A stretch of DNA of 19,570 bases from Clostridia bacterium (GCA_030595925.1 JAUVLC010000045.1:1-19570); one strand, 5' to 3'; positions 2,392 to 10,224 are shown, counted from the stretch's first letter. Program-made: numbers and translations. Notes: generated by a model not told the origin, from the sequence alone.

Positions 2392-3786
2392 ATGAAATTT
2401 GTGAATAGAAAAGTGGAACTGGATTTTTTAAACAAAAAATGGGGAGAAAAGCAATCGCAGTTGATTATCATTTATGGTAAACGGCGTGTAGGTAAGACGG
2501 AACTTAGCATCCGGTTTGCAAAAAACAAGCCACATATTTATTTCTTATGTGAAAGAATAGCTGCTCATAAGCAGTTGAAGAAATTTACCGAAGTGATTGC
2601 TGAATATTTTGACGATGAGTTTTTGCCCGAAGAAGGGTTTAGAGATTGGGAGACCGCTTTTAAATATATTTCTAAGAAAAACAAAAAGATGATTCTTATA
2701 ATTGATGAGTTTCCTTACTTAGCTGAATCAGATAAATCTGTACCGTCTACTTTTCAGAAGGCATGGGACCTTTATCTAAAAAAATCTAAAGTTTACTTGC
2801 TTCTTCTGGGGTCAAGTATATCTATGATGGAAAAAACCACTCTTTATTATAAAGCTCCTCTTTATGGGAGAAGAACAGGTCAGTTTTTGGTAAAACCGTT
2901 TAAATTTAGAGAGCTAAAGAACTTTTTCCCGGAGAAAAGTTTTGAAGAAAGATTGGCTATATATAGTGTTGTTGGAGGAACACCGCTTTATTTGTCCAAA
3001 TTTTGTGGGAAAAACTATATTGAGGTAATAAAAAAAGAAATTTTGCAAAAGGGACAACCTCTTTATGAAGAAGTTGAGTTTTTGCTCAGAGAAGAGCTAA
3101 AAGAACCAAGAAATTATTTTGTGATACTTGAGGCTTTATCTCTTGGGAAGACAAGGTTGTCGGAAATTATTAATGAGACTGGATTTGATAAAGGTATTTC
3201 TTCGCGGTATATTTCTATATTAAATAGTCTTCAAATAACAACAAAAGAAATTCCGGTTACTGAAAAAATACCGGAAAAAAGTAGAAAAGGGATATATTTT
3301 ATAGATGATAACTTTTTTAATTTTTGGTTTAGATTTGTTTTTAAGAATAGAACTTTTCTTGAAGAAAATAGGATAAATGAAGTGGTAAAGAAGATAAATG
3401 AGGCAATAACTGAACTATTAGCCCGGAACTATGAGAGGGTAGCATGTGATATTCTCAGGGATACTTTTTTTAGTAAAAAATTAACTGCAGAATTTGAAGT
3501 GTATGGCCGCTGGTGGGATAAAAAGGGAGAAATAGATATTGTGGCTTTAAATTATGAAAACAGGGAAATTCTTTTTGGTGAGGTTAAGTGGACAAACAAA
3601 AAAGTTGGAATAGACATTTACGAAGACCTGAAAAGAAAATCTGAAATGGTAGAATGGTGGAAGGGTGCTACTAAAAAATATTTTGCTTTATTTAGTAAAA
3701 GTGGCTTTACTGATGATATGCTCAAAACAGCAGAAAAAGAGAAGGTATATTTATTCCATAAAGATAATTTGATAAGTGCAAAATAG
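2392..3786 (+). CDS. ATP-binding protein, archaeal-ATPase/DUF234 type
   Basis: The 464-aa product has an N-terminal P-loop ATPase of the STAND/AAA-like archaeal ATPase family. Walker A is GKRRVGKT (29-36), Walker B MILIIDEF (100-107), the sensor-like strand LLLLGSS (136-142), and an Arg pair lies at 160-161 in PLYGRRTGQF. The C-terminal part fits DUF234, with GRWWD (372-376), EID (380-382) and EVK (397-399). Spaced this way, the latter two resemble the PD-(D/E)XK nuclease core. Proteins of this class are common in archaea and anaerobic bacteria, often in multiple copies, and their biological role is unsettled. A possible link to mobile or toxin-like modules is inference. ATG 2392 follows AAGGG (2378-2382), a weak SD. 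It has its own promoter, a decayed paralogue start upstream, and a separately transcribed downstream operon. Confidence 0.9.
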   Translation: MKFVNRKVELDFLNKKWGEKQSQLIIIYGKRRVGKTELSIRFAKNKPHIYFLCERIAAHKQLKKFTEVIAEYFDDEFLPEEGFRDWETAFKYISKKNKKMILIIDEFPYLAESDKSVPSTFQKAWDLYLKKSKVYLLLLGSSISMMEKTTLYYKAPLYGRRTGQFLVKPFKFRELKNFFPEKSFEERLAIYSVVGGTPLYLSKFCGKNYIEVIKKEILQKGQPLYEEVEFLLREELKEPRNYFVILEALSLGKTRLSEIINETGFDKGISSRYISILNSLQITTKEIPVTEKIPEKSRKGIYFIDDNFFNFWFRFVFKNRTFLEENRINEVVKKINEAITELLARNYERVACDILRDTFFSKKLTAEFEVYGRWWDKKGEIDIVALNYENREILFGEVKWTNKKVGIDIYEDLKRKSEMVEWWKGATKKYFALFSKSGFTDDMLKTAEKEKVYLFHKDNLISAK

Positions 3787-3968: not shown

Positions 3969-5618
3969 ATGGGGAAGAAAATTCTTTCGGTTTTTATCCT
4001 TTCGGTTTTTTGCTTTCTAAGCATTACCTCTCTTTGTCAAGCAGGGCTTAAACTGCGATGGGTGGAAGTAAACGTAGTTTTGGATAAAGACGGTAAAGCT
4101 CAGATAACTTATGCTGTTCGTTGGACCTGCCAAAATGCCAATCTGCATGGTTTTTATTTCAAAGGATTTGTCGGTTCACCTGTGTTTGATTATGAAAATG
4201 CTTATGCAGTGGATAAGCAAGGGAATCGCTATCCATTAGAAATAAAAAAAATTTCTTCCAAAAAGTACGATATTATTCTTGCCGGGGGAAAAGCTTTTGA
4301 TAACGGAGAGATTACTTATTTTTTTCGTTTTGCCAATAATTTGCAAATGAGCGGTAATGTTACCCAAACCGATAGTGAGTTCGGGAGATTAGCGGTATTT
4401 AACTGGGCACCGGTACAATGGGATGAGGGTTTAGAGCACGAGACGGTTATAGTACATTATCCTGTTAGTCTTTCCTCTCAAAATGTAAGCGAAGAAGATT
4501 TAAAAAAAATAAAATTTCTTACTGAGAAATATGTTAATAAGCGTTATTTTATAGATTATGTTACGGTTAAAGGAAAAACCGGAGAAAATATCTTCACCGT
4601 TAGATTTCACCGAGAAAATTTAACTTCCCGCTATCATTTCCGGATTCAAACCTATTTAGATGCTACCCTTTTTAAGTTGACTACTATTGCCGGGAAAATG
4701 CCCTGGGTCAAAACAGATTTAAAGAAAGCCCGGGAGGTCTATTTTCTCAATCGTTTATTCCCTGGAAGCATTTTAGCTCAGATACCAATGAGTTTAACGG
4801 CTTTTTTTATTATTGGATTAGTGGTAGTAGTAGTTTTTATCATTTTTCCTTTTTTAATTATGACCAGGAAACATCAGTCTATGCTGGTAGCACAGGCCGG
4901 AATTTCCAAAGTGAAGTGGGATGGGGATGAATGGGTACCGCCAAAAATTCAAGTAGGGTCATTTCGCAAAAAAGGAAAAATTTATAAAGATCTCTCGGCG
5001 TTGGAAGCAGGACTTCTACTGGATATTCCTCTTTCGGTTTTATTGGGGATGATAATTATAAATATGGAGAGAAAAAAACTAATAATAGCAAAAAGTCTTG
5101 ATCCCATAAAGTTAGAACGGCTTCCCGGGATAACCACCAGTGATGATCCTTACGAAGACATGATTTTTCATGCCATTGATACTGACGGCAGTATTCCGCA
5201 AAAACCGGTTTACGATATGTTTTATTTAATTGCTACGGGGATGGAGCAAAAAGTATGGGATTGTGATTTGGAGGCAACAAAAAAATATTATAAAAAACAT
5301 CTGGATAAAATTTTAAAGGAAAAAAGAAAAGATGCTTACTATTGGTATGGGTATGATGATTTTTATTATGGTAATCGGTATCATCGATATAATTATCACA
5401 GAAGCAGAAGAGTAGGTAAAGGGTTAGAAGGGAATATTGCTCAGGTCAGTGAAGCTTTTTCTACTTTTAGAACTTCTTCTATGTGTTATGACGGGCCTTT
5501 TGTACAAAATGTTTGTCACGATGCCTGCCATTCTGCTTGCCATTCTGCCTGTCATTCTGCTTGTCATTCCGCCTGTCATGGTGCCTGTCACGGGGCCTGT
5601 GTGAGCAGCGGACATTAG
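3969..5618 (+). CDS. Membrane-anchored protein with C-terminal CHxA repeat tail, putative radical SAM substrate
   Basis: The 549-aa product has a signal peptide (hydrophobic core after MGKK, cleavage probably after SLCQA), about 250 extracytoplasmic residues, one membrane span (about 276-299) and a cytoplasmic C-terminal half. The layout recalls DUF2207-type membrane proteins. The cytoplasmic part has a helical segment (SALEAGLLLDIPLSVLLG) like a small winged-helix module, then a Tyr/His/Arg-rich stretch. From residue 516 it ends in seven tetrads of the form C-H-x-A plus a final Cys, so eight Cys at i, i+4 spacing and seven His, closing with VSSGH. The TAG stop is one base before an in-frame ATG of the maturase gene, indicating translational coupling. 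ATG 3969 lies eight bases after AGAGGA; TTG 3966 is an alternative start. The tail may be a modification substrate or a metal-binding tail. Confidence 0.85.
   Translation: MGKKILSVFILSVFCFLSITSLCQAGLKLRWVEVNVVLDKDGKAQITYAVRWTCQNANLHGFYFKGFVGSPVFDYENAYAVDKQGNRYPLEIKKISSKKYDIILAGGKAFDNGEITYFFRFANNLQMSGNVTQTDSEFGRLAVFNWAPVQWDEGLEHETVIVHYPVSLSSQNVSEEDLKKIKFLTEKYVNKRYFIDYVTVKGKTGENIFTVRFHRENLTSRYHFRIQTYLDATLFKLTTIAGKMPWVKTDLKKAREVYFLNRLFPGSILAQIPMSLTAFFIIGLVVVVVFIIFPFLIMTRKHQSMLVAQAGISKVKWDGDEWVPPKIQVGSFRKKGKIYKDLSALEAGLLLDIPLSVLLGMIIINMERKKLIIAKSLDPIKLERLPGITTSDDPYEDMIFHAIDTDGSIPQKPVYDMFYLIATGMEQKVWDCDLEATKKYYKKHLDKILKEKRKDAYYWYGYDDFYYGNRYHRYNYHRSRRVGKGLEGNIAQVSEAFSTFRTSSMCYDGPFVQNVCHDACHSACHSACHSACHSACHGACHGACVSSGH
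5514..5600 (+). repeat. Tandem 12-bp repeat encoding the CHxA tail
   Basis: Seven consecutive 12-bp units encode Cys-His-(Asp/Ser/Gly)-Ala, followed by one more Cys codon. All seven units differ at DNA level: TGT or TGC, CAT or CAC, GCT or GCC and several third-residue codons occur. The protein pattern has therefore been kept while synonymous sites drifted, which argues against fresh slippage. Confidence 0.9.
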
Positions 5619-5628
5619 GATGGGATTT

Positions 5629-6957
5629 ATGAATTACTATGAACAAATAAAATGGGTTGATGAGTATATTGAATATGTGGCTCCTTTTATTTATGTAAGA
5701 GAGGCGGATAATTTATTGATTAAAATCCCTAATGAAGCTTATAAACTTAATCCGCAGGGACTGAAAATTTTAAAACATCTCCTTTCCGGGGGAAGTATCT
5801 ATCTGCTTATAGACCGGTATCCGGACAAAGAAAAAGTAGCTTACGATATTCATAATTTTTTTTGCGATTTGCGGGCAATATTAAAAGGATGTTATCAGGA
5901 GCGGGTTCCCCGGCGTGCTGTAGAAAAAATTCCATTCTCTTTACCTTTTAATACACTTCCTGTTTTAAGTGAAATAGCGGTAACCTACCGTTGTAATTTA
6001 GCTTGTAAGTTTTGTTATGCTTCCTGTGGATGTACTAAAAAGCAAAACAGTGAGGAATTAAATACAGAAGAAATTAAAGAAGTGCTTACTATTATCAAAA
6101 ACGAAGCAGAAGTTCCCTCAGTGAGTTTTACCGGGGGAGAACCTACCTTGCGGGATGACCTTACAGAGGTAATTAGCTTTGCTAAGTCTTTAAAAATGTG
6201 GACCAATTTAATTACCAATGCGACGCTTATTACTAAGGAAAAAGCCCAATCTTTTAAAGATGCGGGATTGGATTCCGCTCAGGTTAGTTTAGAAGGGGGA
6301 AAGCCTGTTTTACATGATGCTATTGTCCAAAAGTCCGGTGCTTTTACTTCCACTATTGGAGGTCTGATGCATTTAAAGGAAGCAGGAATCAGGGTACATA
6401 CCAATACTACTATTTCCCGTTTGAATAAAGAAGAACTTTTTAATATTTTAGATACGGTAAAAGATTTAGGGATGGACCGGTTGTCTATGAATATGATTAC
6501 TCCACAGGGTTCGGCATTGAAGGATTTAAGTAAAATTTTGATAACTTATTCGGAAATTGGAGAGGTTGTTTTAGAAGTTTTTAAATATGCTCAAAAATTA
6601 GAATTGGAATTTATGTGGTATTCGCCTACACCGATGTGCATTTTCAATCCTATTATGCATGGATTAGGGAGTAAAGGTTGTGCGGCTTGTGATGGATTGT
6701 TGAGTGTTGCTCCCGATGGCAATATTCTTCCCTGCTCTAGTTTTCCTAAGCCAATGGGGGATATTCTGGAGATGAAAGGAAAGTTTAAAGAGGTATGGAG
6801 AAGTCTGGATTTTGAATTTTTCCAGAAGAAACGTTTTGCTCACCAAAAATGTAAAGAATGTCAGCATTTAGCTATTTGTAACGGAGGATGTCCCCTCTAT
6901 TGGGAGCAGGTAGGTTTTGAAGAGATTCTTAAGCAAAACAAGGAGGTGGTGGTGTGA
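5629..6957 (+). CDS. PqqD-like/radical SAM/SPASM maturase
   Basis: The 442-aa enzyme has three parts. Residues about 25-88 resemble PqqD (KLNPQGLKILKHLLSGG, then a predicted helical pair), the fold that recognises leader or substrate peptides in RiPP pathways. The radical SAM core has the 4Fe-4S motif C122-x3-C126-x2-C129, followed by CYASCG, and the SAM-binding GGE (169-171). The SPASM domain has C351, C354, a 14-residue gap to C369, then C408-x2-C411-x5-C417-x3-C421, able to hold auxiliary clusters. Such enzymes use a 5'-deoxyadenosyl radical to form thioether or C-C links or otherwise modify peptides. The reaction here is unknown. ATG 5629 sits eight bases after AGGA; ATG 5620, one base after the upstream stop, is an alternative start. 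Position and fusion architecture point to the CHxA tail upstream as substrate. Confidence 0.92.
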   Translation: MNYYEQIKWVDEYIEYVAPFIYVREADNLLIKIPNEAYKLNPQGLKILKHLLSGGSIYLLIDRYPDKEKVAYDIHNFFCDLRAILKGCYQERVPRRAVEKIPFSLPFNTLPVLSEIAVTYRCNLACKFCYASCGCTKKQNSEELNTEEIKEVLTIIKNEAEVPSVSFTGGEPTLRDDLTEVISFAKSLKMWTNLITNATLITKEKAQSFKDAGLDSAQVSLEGGKPVLHDAIVQKSGAFTSTIGGLMHLKEAGIRVHTNTTISRLNKEELFNILDTVKDLGMDRLSMNMITPQGSALKDLSKILITYSEIGEVVLEVFKYAQKLELEFMWYSPTPMCIFNPIMHGLGSKGCAACDGLLSVAPDGNILPCSSFPKPMGDILEMKGKFKEVWRSLDFEFFQKKRFAHQKCKECQHLAICNGGCPLYWEQVGFEEILKQNKEVVV

Positions 6958-7910
6958 GTATTTTACCTGACCCTCAAAAACAGGGAAATATTCAGTTTAT
7001 TTTTGCTAAAAAATTATCTTATTCCGCCCGGATGAAATTTGTCTTGTTTTTTATTGTCATTGGGCTTTTGATTCAACTGTTTTTTCATTTTTGGCTGGGT
7101 CTTATTTTCTTAGGGCTCGGAGTAAGTTTAAGTTTTATCAAAGGATATTTTGATAAAACGATTGTAGTAAGTAAAGGAAAATGGGCGCAGGTTACCCCGG
7201 ATGAATACAAAAAAGTTAAAACAAAACAAGAACAACTAAAAAAATGGGATACAGATGCTTTTGATATTACTAATTCTTTAGGTGCGGCTGTTTTTATATT
7301 AGTAGCTTTGATTTGTTTTGCAGTTTGGTTTGGACTTTATTATGTTTTAGGAGAATTGAGGCTTGCTTTATATTGGATTATAGACGTGATAGTTCTTTTT
7401 GGTTTTCATTGGATTACAGGGATAAGGACTTTTTTAAAAAGAGATAAGTTAATTATAAAAATTAATTTTCTGGAAAAGATTATGGCTGGATTATCTAATC
7501 CCAGTGATATTCAAGTTTTGCCAATGCTTTCTACCAGAGAAATTGAAGGGAAAGGCTGTATTCCGGATGATGCCCGGCTGATGATACGCTTTCTCAATGC
7601 CCCGGAATGTTTTATGGGAATGCAAATTCAAATTTCCTTAAACAATGTGCAGGGGAAAGATTATCCTTATCTTTATTGTGTTTTGATTGCTAAAAAAGAA
7701 GCGGGATTTTTCCTTAAAAGAGAACAATTACTTAAAAATCCTCCGGAAAAAGTAGTGTTTGAACAGCAGGCATCAGGTGATGTAGATGTCCTGGTAATTC
7801 GCCAACATACCACTAAAAGGTCCGGGTACCATACCAATTTGAAAAGAGCTGCTAGTATTGTAATGGAAACAATTTCTTTAACCCGTCGGTTGCTAAAAGA
7901 AAGTCTTTAA
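6954..7910 (+). CDS. Unrecognised four-helix membrane protein of the radical SAM operon
   Basis: The GTG start overlaps the maturase stop (GTGA) and follows AGGAGGT (6941-6947) by six bases, so it is translationally coupled. The 318-aa product has two membrane spans near 27-63, a basic cytoplasmic-type loop (about 64-105), two more spans near 110-156, and a soluble C-terminal domain of about 160 residues. That domain contains GKGCIPDDARLMIRF, NAPECFMGMQIQISLNN and IRQHTTKRSGYHT. There is no signal peptide and no protease or transporter motif that I recognise. Tight coupling suggests it works with the CHxA protein and the maturase, perhaps as a membrane partner, receptor or exporter-like factor. 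That is inference from position only. No convincing terminator follows, only T8 at 7913-7920. Confidence 0.85.
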   Translation: MSILPDPQKQGNIQFIFAKKLSYSARMKFVLFFIVIGLLIQLFFHFWLGLIFLGLGVSLSFIKGYFDKTIVVSKGKWAQVTPDEYKKVKTKQEQLKKWDTDAFDITNSLGAAVFILVALICFAVWFGLYYVLGELRLALYWIIDVIVLFGFHWITGIRTFLKRDKLIIKINFLEKIMAGLSNPSDIQVLPMLSTREIEGKGCIPDDARLMIRFLNAPECFMGMQIQISLNNVQGKDYPYLYCVLIAKKEAGFFLKREQLLKNPPEKVVFEQQASGDVDVLVIRQHTTKRSGYHTNLKRAASIVMETISLTRRLLKESL

Positions 7911-8154: not shown

Positions 8155-8745
8155 ATGCAAGAAATAGCAAATAATATCATTATACAGGCTTCAAAAGGAG
8201 ATATAGGGGCTTTTGAAATAATATATAAAGCGGGTGCCGATTTTGTCTATAGTATAGCTTTGAGTATTACTAAGGACATTGATAATGCTGAGGATATTAC
8301 TCAGGAAGTATTTATAAAAATATACAAAAATCTTAATAAATTTCAGTTTCGCTCAACGTTTAAAACATGGATATACAGGATTGCTATTAATACCGCAATA
8401 AATGCTTATAAAAAAAGATCAAAAGAAATGAGTAAAAGGGATGATTTTGATTTTGCTCTTAAAACTCAATATGTAAATGATGAAACAGAGGAAATTATTG
8501 GCAGGAAAGACAAAAAAAGACAGCTTTTATCTTTTTTAGATACGCTGAATACGGAGCAGAGAACCTGTATAATATTAAGGGAAATAGAGGGATTAAGTTA
8601 TAAAGAAATTTCTGAAGTATTAAAAATTAATATTAATACTGTACGCTCAAGATTAAAAAGAGCCCGAATAGCTCTTTTAGCTTGTAGGAAAAAAGGGGTG
8701 ATGAACGATGAATTGCGAAGAAATAAAGCAATTGTTAATGACTGA
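8155..8745 (+). CDS. ECF RNA polymerase sigma factor
   Basis: The 196-aa product has sigma region 2 at about 25-90 (DITQEVFIKIYKNL for core binding, then STFKTWIYRIAINTAINAYKKR for -10 recognition) and region 4 at about 125-178, with the helix-turn-helix LSYKEISEVLKININTVRSR that reads the -35. Region 3 is absent, as in ECF sigma factors. ATG 8155 follows GAGAGG by five bases. Its 3' end overlaps the anti-sigma gene by 38 bp, so the pair is co-translated. It probably directs RNA polymerase to the two GGAAC-N17-GTCTA promoters here, including its own, giving positive autoregulation in response to envelope stress. Confidence 0.95.
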   Translation: MQEIANNIIIQASKGDIGAFEIIYKAGADFVYSIALSITKDIDNAEDITQEVFIKIYKNLNKFQFRSTFKTWIYRIAINTAINAYKKRSKEMSKRDDFDFALKTQYVNDETEEIIGRKDKKRQLLSFLDTLNTEQRTCIILREIEGLSYKEISEVLKININTVRSRLKRARIALLACRKKGVMNDELRRNKAIVND

Positions 8746-9205
8746 TTATATTGATGGTGAAATTAGTAAGGAATTAAAAGAAGAAGTGGAAAAGCATCTG
8801 AATATTTGTGACAACTGTCGGCAACTTCAACAGGATTTGCAGGGGATTAGTGGTGATTTATTTAAAAAAATAAAGCAAATTAAGGTGTCGGCTTTAGTTT
8901 GGACCAGAATAAAAAATTTTGTAGGCAAAGAAAGAAAACAATCAAAGGGGATATTTGTCGGGTTAATTAATTATTTACGACCTGATTTTTTTATCAGAAA
9001 ACCGGTTTTTTCTATGGCGGTGTTTTTAACAATTGTTTTTTTGGGAATAATTTTTACAAGATTGCCGGTTAGTAATCAGAAAATAGCAAATTCTTATTTA
9101 AAAGAACAAGTAGATTTTTTTGTTTATTTAGATGCCGATGGAACAGAATTTTCGGATACAGAGAACATAGATTTTGGAACCAGTATAGAAGAATATTTTC
9201 TCTAA
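8708..9205 (+). CDS. Zinc-finger (ZAS-type) membrane anti-sigma factor
   Basis: The 165-aa product has the ZAS signature C3 ... H30-x3-C34-x2-C37 in its N-terminal cytoplasmic part, which in this family binds zinc and clamps the cognate ECF sigma factor. One membrane span lies at about 100-117 (VFSMAVFLTIVFLGIIF), leaving about 45 acidic residues outside the membrane. The start lies inside the last codons of the sigma gene, with GGGG about nine bases upstream. Release of the sigma factor would follow a signal acting on the outer segment or on the zinc site. Which one cannot be told, and no dedicated site-1 protease gene is adjacent. The Ste24-like protease at 12588 is probably unrelated. Confidence 0.92.
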   Translation: MNCEEIKQLLMTDYIDGEISKELKEEVEKHLNICDNCRQLQQDLQGISGDLFKKIKQIKVSALVWTRIKNFVGKERKQSKGIFVGLINYLRPDFFIRKPVFSMAVFLTIVFLGIIFTRLPVSNQKIANSYLKEQVDFFVYLDADGTEFSDTENIDFGTSIEEYFL

Positions 9206-9207
9206 AA

Positions 9208-9235
9208 GGAACTTTTTTTTAATTTTTTTGTCTAA
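9208..9235 (+). promoter_or_regulatory. Second ECF-type promoter, for the Spy/CpxP-like gene
   Basis: GGAACTT (9208-9214) and GTCTAA (9230-9235) repeat the boxes and 17-bp spacing of the promoter at 8109. The T-rich spacer and the following GAT are also shared. It begins two bases after the anti-sigma stop, so the third gene has its own ECF promoter besides possible read-through. Confidence 0.8.
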
Positions 9236-9276
9236 GATAGTGAGAAGTAAAACAATAAAAAAGGAGATAAGAACTC

Positions 9277-10224
9277 ATGAAAGCAAGATATAAACTAGTA
9301 AGTGTTTGTGTGGGAGTAATGGTAGTATCTTTTTTAAGTGTGGTTGCCCATGCCGGTAGAGGCCATGTAGAAAAGGGGTATAACTATGGAGAAAAAAGGA
9401 TAGATAATTTAGCAAAAGAGCTGGAATTAACTCCTAAACAACAAAAGCAATTTGAGAAACAGCATGAAATAGAGCATAAACAGAAGAAGAAAAATTGGAA
9501 ATTATTGAAAGGTAAAAAAAGGGAACTTAAAGAAGAATTAGAAAAAATAAATTCGGATGAAAGAAAAATAAAGAAAATAATTGAAGAGTATAAAGAATTA
9601 AAGGCTAAAGTGATTAATCAAAGAGTGGACTGTGGGTTAAAAATGAAAAAAATTTTAACAGCTGAGCAATTTGACAAATTTCATCAAAGAGTGAATGTTG
9701 GTAAAAAAGAAATGATGCATAGACGAAAAGAAAAAATGAATGAGAAAAGGATGAATAACTTGGTTAAGGAACTGGATTTGATTCCCCGGCAGCAAGAAAA
9801 AATGGAAAAATATCATAAGTCAAAACGACAGAAAAAAGAAAGAATGCATGAAGAAAAAGTGGATAATCTGATTAAGGATTTGGATTTGACTTCCCAGCAG
9901 CGAGTGCAATTGGAAAAATACCGCAAGACAAATCATGAGAGACATAGAAAATACCGGGACTTATTAAAGGATAAGCGAAAAGAACTTGAAATAGAATTAG
10001 CAAAATATGATTCGGATGAAAGGGAAACAAAAAGAATAGCTACCCAGCTTACGGATTTATGGGGAGAGGCTATAGAACAAAGAACAAATAGCGTATTGGA
10101 AATAAAGAAGGTGTTAACCCCCGAGCAATTTGAGAAATTTCAGCAAAAGATAAATACTTTTAAACATAGAAAATCGGGCAAGCGAGGACATCCCGGGAGC
10201 AGGGGACAATTTCCTTTAGAATAA
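9277..10224 (+). CDS. Duplicated Spy/CpxP-like periplasmic protein
   Basis: A signal peptide (cleavage probably after VVAHA, residue 26) is followed by a highly charged, almost wholly helical protein. LTxxQ-type motifs typical of the Spy/CpxP/ZraP family occur as LTPKQQ (51), LTAEQF (127), LTSQQR (204) and LTPEQF (280), with a degenerate LIPRQQ (168). The family holds periplasmic chaperones or stress sensors of about 150-170 aa. This product has 315 aa and appears to hold two full units (about 40-142 and 193-297) separated by a partial third (about 157-190). AGGAG (9262-9266) lies ten bases before ATG. The adjacent ECF promoter fits an envelope-stress effector, possibly with feedback on the stress response. 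Confidence 0.88.
   Translation: MKARYKLVSVCVGVMVVSFLSVVAHAGRGHVEKGYNYGEKRIDNLAKELELTPKQQKQFEKQHEIEHKQKKKNWKLLKGKKRELKEELEKINSDERKIKKIIEEYKELKAKVINQRVDCGLKMKKILTAEQFDKFHQRVNVGKKEMMHRRKEKMNEKRMNNLVKELDLIPRQQEKMEKYHKSKRQKKERMHEEKVDNLIKDLDLTSQQRVQLEKYRKTNHERHRKYRDLLKDKRKELEIELAKYDSDERETKRIATQLTDLWGEAIEQRTNSVLEIKKVLTPEQFEKFQQKINTFKHRKSGKRGHPGSRGQFPLE

Follow-up and report, generated by a model that had tools for sequence, protein, structure and literature searches.

The 19,570-nt stretch of DNA from a Clostridia bacterium analysed here (GCA_030595925.1 JAUVLC010000045.1:1-19570; hereafter referred to as the window) carries three abutting genes on the plus strand (3969-5618, 5620-6957 and 6954-7910). 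These probably form a cassette in which the cytoplasmic tail of a membrane-anchored protein, built from CHxA units, is modified post-translationally by an adjacent radical SAM/SPASM enzyme with a putative PqqD-like N-terminus. The cassette itself, the conservation of the tail, the strict pairing of tail and enzyme, and the association of two tail codes with two enzyme clades are strongly supported at the sequence level, and the tail very probably represents the substrate of this maturase. A preliminary description of the locus had recognized the first two genes and overlooked the third member.

3969..5618, plus strand: tailed membrane protein (549 residues, ATG at 3969), proposed maturase substrate (homologues in distant phyla, weak DUF2207 similarity)
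5620..6957, plus strand: radical SAM/SPASM maturase (445 residues; PF04055, SPASM match, invariant Cys)
6954..7910, plus strand: third cassette gene, a protein of 318 residues with four transmembrane helices and a cytoplasmic alpha/beta domain (adjoins the cassette in most loci; structure model)

The maturase ATG at 5620 is located 1 nt past the stop of the tailed-protein gene, which makes the translational coupling assumed in the preliminary description plausible, with an alternative ATG at 5632 being common to the window and a close relative. The third gene has a GTG start that overlaps the maturase stop. The same three genes were observed in relative G002, where the assembled part of the tailed protein is 87% identical and the enzyme 92% identical to their window counterparts; the phylum of the source genome is represented by three genomes only in the collection.

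The tail was shown to be constrained as a protein feature.

5514..5615, plus strand: (CHxA)7-C-VSSGH tail, proposed modification site (identity and codon analysis)

As described earlier, the open reading frame (ORF) 3969-5618 encodes a 549-residue protein ending in CHDACHSACHSACHSACHSACHGACHGACVSSGH followed by a stop, i.e. seven CHxA units and a Cys at nucleotides 5514-5615. The 33 tails collected in this analysis each contain seven to nine CHxA units (253 in total), in which the variable residue is Ser (198), Asp (28), Asn (11), Ala (9), Gly (6) or Gln (1). The Ala at position 4 never varies in the counted units, which were counted by the CHxA pattern itself, and the same Ala constancy is seen in the alignment. 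The tail end, CVSGG(x)H, is likewise conserved. Mean pairwise identity is 0.93 for the tail versus 0.28 for the body, while codon identity, given the same residue, is 0.40 and 0.39, respectively. Tail codons vary like body codons despite this difference in identity, indicative of selection acting on the tail as protein. Comparison of the window with G002 revealed one replacement and six silent substitutions in the tail, and 52 and 82, respectively, in the remainder of the shared protein. A 12-bp tandem repeat located at a gene end might be taken for a DNA-level repeat that is spread or kept by slippage and lacks a protein function, but the probability of this explanation is negligible: synonymous codons are as free as in the body, Ser is drawn from both codon families, neighbouring units have identical DNA in only 12 of 216 cases, the unit number is narrow and the CVSGG(x)H end is kept. 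Codon freedom and the rarity of identical adjacent units rule out slippage or recent spread, and a DNA repeat artefact was discarded on the codon analysis. Opposite the tail repeat lies a minus-strand ORF (5424-5615); such antisense ORFs, present over many tails, are artefacts of periodic codons.

To assess the distribution of the tail, two samples were used, i.e. 290 genomes spread over the domain and a scan of 85 thousand species genomes with the pattern CHxxCHxxCHxxCH, the larger named phyla being sampled by the pattern scan only. The scan yielded at least 118 stretches, at least 21 of which, when read in frame, proved to be genuine tails terminating long ORFs; the remaining stretches were rejected as out-of-frame repeat junk. 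Altogether, the 33 tails are distributed over at least nine named phyla plus candidate phyla. The tails from the scan have hosts in Kiritimatiellota, Planctomycetota, Myxococcota, Acidobacteriota, Spirochaetota, Pseudomonadota, Chloroflexota, Abditibacteriota and Aminicenantes, nearly all of which are metagenome bins whose individual assignments may be wrong. Full-length relatives of the first gene (30-36% identity) were identified in six of the 290 genomes outside the window's genus, all ending in (CHxA)n-CVSGG(x)H, and homologues in distant phyla, with 28-39% identity, all end in the same tail. A DNA pattern of three CHxA units was found in only those eight of the 290 genomes that carry this gene family, and a reversed control pattern in none. 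The occurrence of CHxA tails is far beyond chance.

The preliminary description had singled out, beforehand, the co-occurrence of tail and maturase as the observation on which its proposal depends. The maturase was found in the same gene cluster in 31 of the 33 tail loci; for the remaining two it is encoded in trans, elsewhere in the genome. No CHxA tail lacking a maturase in the same genome was found among the 33 loci or in the 290 genomes, and the proposal withstood this check. Within the latter sample, all eight tail genomes encode a maturase of this clade and eight of nine maturase genomes encode a tail; the ninth (G001), in which the gene is cut by a contig end, is the only genome in that sample with a maturase of this clade and no tail. 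Leaving out the window's genus, pairing is six out of six in 287 genomes, with a chance probability of ~1e-12 by counting. Maturases of this clade score ~620-670 bits (496 for the cut G001 enzyme), followed by a band at 296-318 bits and then by values below 191; three radical SAM enzymes scoring 185-190 bits (L220-L222) were regarded as members of other families, since their matches do not include the N-terminal region. Furthermore, distances between substrate bodies and between enzymes correlate (r 0.80; 0 of 5000 permutations). One Myxococcales metagenome-assembled genome (MAG) contains two tail genes and one detected maturase: L063 is a complete cassette, and the lone tail gene L048 is directly followed by an ORF resembling the third gene.

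A second tail, CACACACAGCACACAGGGR, was shown to end related membrane proteins in five genomes, which are exactly those harbouring a sister clade of the maturase (5/5; loci L013, L014, L015, L016, L202 and L205 in genomes G268, G131, G122, G259 and G242). This tail, referred to here as CACA, varies even less than the CHxA tail. The five sister enzymes (296-318 bits) form one clade with a Shimodaira-Hasegawa-like approximate likelihood ratio test (SH-aLRT) value of 100. The CACA proteins carry a signal peptide and, in four of five cases, a single span after an outside domain according to hydropathy, while the tail and enzyme genes are close together in two genomes and on different contigs in three. 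Such a match between two sister clades and two tails on related carriers would be difficult to account for if the tail were of no importance to the enzyme. An Ala-Cys step occurs in both tails, whereas His is present in CHxA only. At two Myxococcota loci (L084 and L129) the protein bodies are longer and divergent and the tail is a variant, (CHSA)n-CACHSACHSAC-VSSCAG(S/G)F; the enzymes of these loci group with the CACA clade; as the rooting of the enzyme tree rests on two long outgroup branches, the tree does not fix the order in which the tails originated.

The body of the window protein is consistent with a membrane-anchored carrier with the following elements.

3969..4043, plus strand: signal peptide, residues 1 to ~25 (hydrophobic segment 1-19; modelled helix 2-21)
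4044..4664, plus strand: extracytoplasmic beta domain, residues 26-232 (predicted local distance difference test score, pLDDT, ~90; fold match 8agb_E)
4803..4859, plus strand: single transmembrane span, residues 279-297 (hydropathy 3.3; modelled long helix 268-314)
4920..5318, plus strand: cytoplasmic domain, residues 318-450, candidate maturase docking site (cross-class BLAST matches; invariant residues)
5250..5279, plus strand: motif KxWDCDxEAT, residues 428-437 (K428, W430, D433 and T437 invariant in 21 sequences)

The beta domain (residues 26-232) matched ribophorin I (8agb_E) with a VIA-align Z of 16.4 and a root-mean-square deviation (rmsd) of 2.7 over 180 residues, and structure comparison also revealed a fold similar to that of the N-terminal domain of M1 aminopeptidases. 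A search of solved structures by sequence, using the substrate and the third-gene protein, returned nothing significant. With respect to DUF2207 (PF09972), the window protein scores 17.1 bits versus a gathering score of 24.4, and nine of 21 relatives match (best E 4e-7). The arrangement proposed earlier, in which a signal peptide, an outside domain and one span lead to a cytoplasmic tail, is supported by the structure model, by hydropathy and by the flanking charges: the C-terminus is placed in the cytoplasm because Lys/Arg follow the span in most homologues. The predicted structure contains a winged-helix-like cytoplasmic region after one long membrane helix, with the tail at pLDDT below 50. 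The cytoplasmic domain (~318-451), in which the BLAST matches mainly lie, is the sole part detectably common to both tail classes, and eight of its residues (W322, P325, G336, K337, K428, W430, D433 and T437) are invariant in an alignment of 21 sequences. KxWDCDxEAT, the most conserved stretch near the tail, is a candidate docking site for the maturase.

The maturase exhibited clear matches to the radical SAM (PF04055, 5e-27) and SPASM (5.8e-8) domains.

5677..5889, plus strand: putative PqqD-like N-terminal domain, approximate bounds (PF05402 in 11 of 24 orthologues; sister class 9e-5)
5980..6453, plus strand: radical SAM core, residues 121-278 (PF04055)
6679..6891, plus strand: SPASM domain (PF13186, residues 354-415; Cys pattern to C424)

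The CxxxCxxC motif (C125, C129 and C132), the SPASM Cys (C354, C372, C411, C414, C420 and C424) and C340 are invariant in 24 enzymes, and PF13186 was found in all 24. Of the PqqD-radical SAM-SPASM architecture described earlier, the radical SAM and SPASM parts were thus confirmed, while the PqqD part, which would correspond to the substrate-recognition domain (RRE) of RiPP maturases, is sub-threshold: PF05402 is below Pfam detection in the window maturase, matches 11 of 24 orthologues (best 0.0017) and reaches 9e-5 in the CACA-class enzymes (23.1 bits versus a cut-off of 23.4), suggesting a genuine similarity that falls short of the cut-off. By profile comparison, the closest solved relatives include SkfB (a sactionine enzyme), PqqE, SuiB and CteB (structures 5v1q and 5wgg, which we take to be SuiB and CteB, respectively). 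Among NCBIfam equivalogs, none reached its cut-off for the maturase (NirJ2, 147 of 500 bits; AhbD, 145.8 of 500; PqqE, 136.9 of 381). In CHxA-class maturases (window 6892-6957) there is no counterpart of the Cys that follows the last SPASM motif, after CPLYW, in the CACA class, so that one auxiliary cluster of the CHxA-class enzyme may be liganded by something other than Cys or be left with an open site. PADLOC pVip matches of the maturase were dismissed, as they reflect the common radical SAM core only, and no maturase was found in plasmids and phages at E 1e-40.

Taken together, these features suggest a sequence of events in which the signal peptide would export the protein, with the membrane stop keeping the winged-helix-like domain and the tail on the cytoplasmic side, where the tail presumably meets the enzyme. 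The putative PqqD-like domain of the maturase would dock on the conserved cytoplasmic domain, after which the enzyme would work down the (CHxA)7-9-C tail one unit at a time, the possibly chaperone-like cytoplasmic domain of the third protein perhaps holding the tail. Each Cys sulfur might be linked as a thioether to a carbon of a nearby residue, the invariant Ala or the adjacent His being candidates; this chemistry is a guess at somewhat less than an even chance, and one crosslink per CHxA unit is likewise a guess. Once completed, the tail would form a rigid array of Cys and His fit for metal binding or redox sensing, a role that is likewise a guess, with odds similar to those of the thioether. 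The broadest formulation, which is tentative and less likely than not, is that of a widespread, undescribed class resembling ribosomally synthesized and post-translationally modified peptides (RiPPs), in which the tail is converted unit by unit to a crosslinked Cys/His array that remains attached and serves in metal binding or redox, coupled to a domain outside the cytoplasm, with two enzyme clades reading the CHxA and CACA codes.

Several observations weigh against modification of the tail by the maturase or narrow what can be concluded from its support. The PqqD match stays below the curated cut-off, the tail is modelled at a pLDDT of less than 50, the case for a thioether comes from distant resemblance alone, and the correlation of substrate and enzyme distances may partly represent plain common descent of the cassette. 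Clustering is not obligatory either, since tail and enzyme are not neighbours in G243 (whose assembly has them on separate contigs), at L048, or in the CACA genomes G122, G259 and G268. Moreover, the tail could bind metal unmodified while the enzyme acts elsewhere, its substrate role having been inferred from sequence. Such a plain Cys/His metal array, comparable to the Cys-lined helices of copper storage proteins, with the enzyme acting on another site or on the third-gene product, is unlikely. Cys and His every four residues do constitute a natural metal ligand pattern, and another cassette partner could serve as the enzyme target, but across 253 units the Ala at position 4 is no less constant than Cys and His, and metal binding does not need Ala; in addition, tail type and enzyme clade change together, and although no enzyme gene adjoins the tail and third genes at L048, its MAG has one.

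If the tail is modified, its chemistry could also be other than a thioether, which is a serious contender at a little under even probability: a His crosslink (C-N or C-C), conversion of Cys to formylglycine, which the radical SAM/SPASM enzyme anSME makes, or cyclopropylglycine-like C-C bonds. His is invariant in the CHxA class and the maturase is also close to PqqE; however, the CACA tails of the sister class contain no His, which argues against the His-crosslink option and indicates that His is not a general family requirement. Radical SAM/SPASM C-C chemistry has precedent (PMC9062424), and His crosslinks made by such enzymes are cited in PMC10206099. The tail may, furthermore, be a core that is cut off after modification and set free as a peptide, the membrane protein being a mere carrier. 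This is improbable, although the tail is terminal and release is the usual fate of RiPP cores: reading of the neighbours by eye revealed no evidently conserved protease gene in the cassette, and the tail is predicted to be cytoplasmic with no evidently conserved exporter. The proposal that the anchored tail itself is the target of the maturase was partly supported overall: pairing, the sister clade and topology favour it, while modification is conjectured.

Among loci that extend far enough, most have the third gene beside the cassette, and in L050 it lies between the substrate and enzyme genes. The model of its product (pLDDT 82) has four helices in the membrane and places an alpha/beta domain in the cytoplasm. 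This C-terminal domain matched the type III secretion chaperone Spa15 with a Z of 8.4 (rmsd 3.1 over 121 residues), with several chaperones and YbjN at 5-8, values which are near background; a function as tail holder is a guess based on this model. Elsewhere in the window, positions 2392-3786 encode an archaeal-type AAA ATPase with DUF234, which matches the PADLOC candidate defence family PDC-S27 (3e-42). The region 3' of the cassette (8155-10224) encodes an ECF sigma factor, a zinc-finger anti-sigma factor and a protein resembling LTXXQ/heavy-metal-resistance proteins; G002 has a different gene there.

If this interpretation is correct, radical SAM RiPP chemistry is not confined to small free peptides but reaches a tail that stays fixed to a large transmembrane protein, which would be an undescribed kind of protein modification, in bacteria of at least nine phyla, mostly uncultured. 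The pairing constitutes a testable substrate-enzyme code, any mass change being easy to read because each substrate carries seven to nine equal units, and it opens a route to the function of the widespread but poorly understood DUF2207-like proteins. In the open literature, searches for DUF2207 with radical SAM, for CHSA tails and for Cxxx repeats returned nothing relevant, subscription papers being outside their scope, and no NCBIfam model (June 2026) reaches its cut-off for any of the three cassette genes. This suggests that the cassette is without a description in the open literature, an earlier description in subscription papers being possible. An ovothiol-DUF2207 neighbourhood was set aside, having been dismissed by its own authors.

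Among known systems, SkfB, SuiB, CteB and PqqE share the combination of radical SAM and SPASM domains and, as far as the sub-threshold match goes, a PqqD-like region, but their substrates are short free peptides. The earlier statement that RiPP maturases act on short peptides nevertheless needs correcting, as anSME and QhpD are SPASM enzymes that act on proteins; anSME targets a single Cys of sulfatases and QhpD a small enzyme subunit, neither of which is a membrane-protein repeat tail. The family TIGR04117 (Syntroph_Cxxx), by its NCBIfam name a radical SAM target, has a C-terminal repeat with Cys at every fourth residue, but its model, which has a length of 98, implies no signal peptide-transmembrane-cytoplasmic architecture, and on the window tail it scores 11.1 bits (E 0.33) versus a cut-off of 50. 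DUF2207 (PF09972) is resembled by the N-terminal extracytoplasmic domain in nine of 21 members of the window family, which differs in having one span after this domain and a CHxA tail. TvgB, also a radical SAM/SPASM enzyme, processes a short repeated motif one unit after another, acting repeatedly on the TVGG core of TvgA with a change of -2 Da each, but its substrate is a free TVGG peptide in which cyclopropylglycine is formed and Cys is absent (PMC9062424). The TIGR04222 proteins are also large and anchored, with a Cys-rich, low-complexity C-terminal tail beside a peptide-modifying metalloenzyme, of which the tail is the proposed target (PMC12452194). Neither TvgB nor TIGR04222/MNIO is the same system. 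Cys- or Gly-rich tails near radical SAM genes on DUF2207- or TIGR04222-like proteins had been mentioned in the preliminary description; the weak DUF2207 similarity of the tailed protein is real, but a DUF2207-radical SAM link was not found in the open literature, and the TIGR04222 proteins are proposed substrates of MNIO enzymes (PMC12452194). TIGR04222 gave no match at E 1 for the window protein and none at 0.01 for its relatives, and no MNIO (DUF692) match was obtained among the window genes scanned, neighbours elsewhere being inspected by eye only. The enzyme associated with TIGR04222 is an MNIO and its tail is Gly/Ser-rich and predicted to be periplasmic, while the enzyme described here belongs to the radical SAM family; moreover, the TIGR04222 association is loose, with one third of genomes lacking an MNIO (PMC12452194), whereas the pairing of CHxA tails with their maturase is strict.

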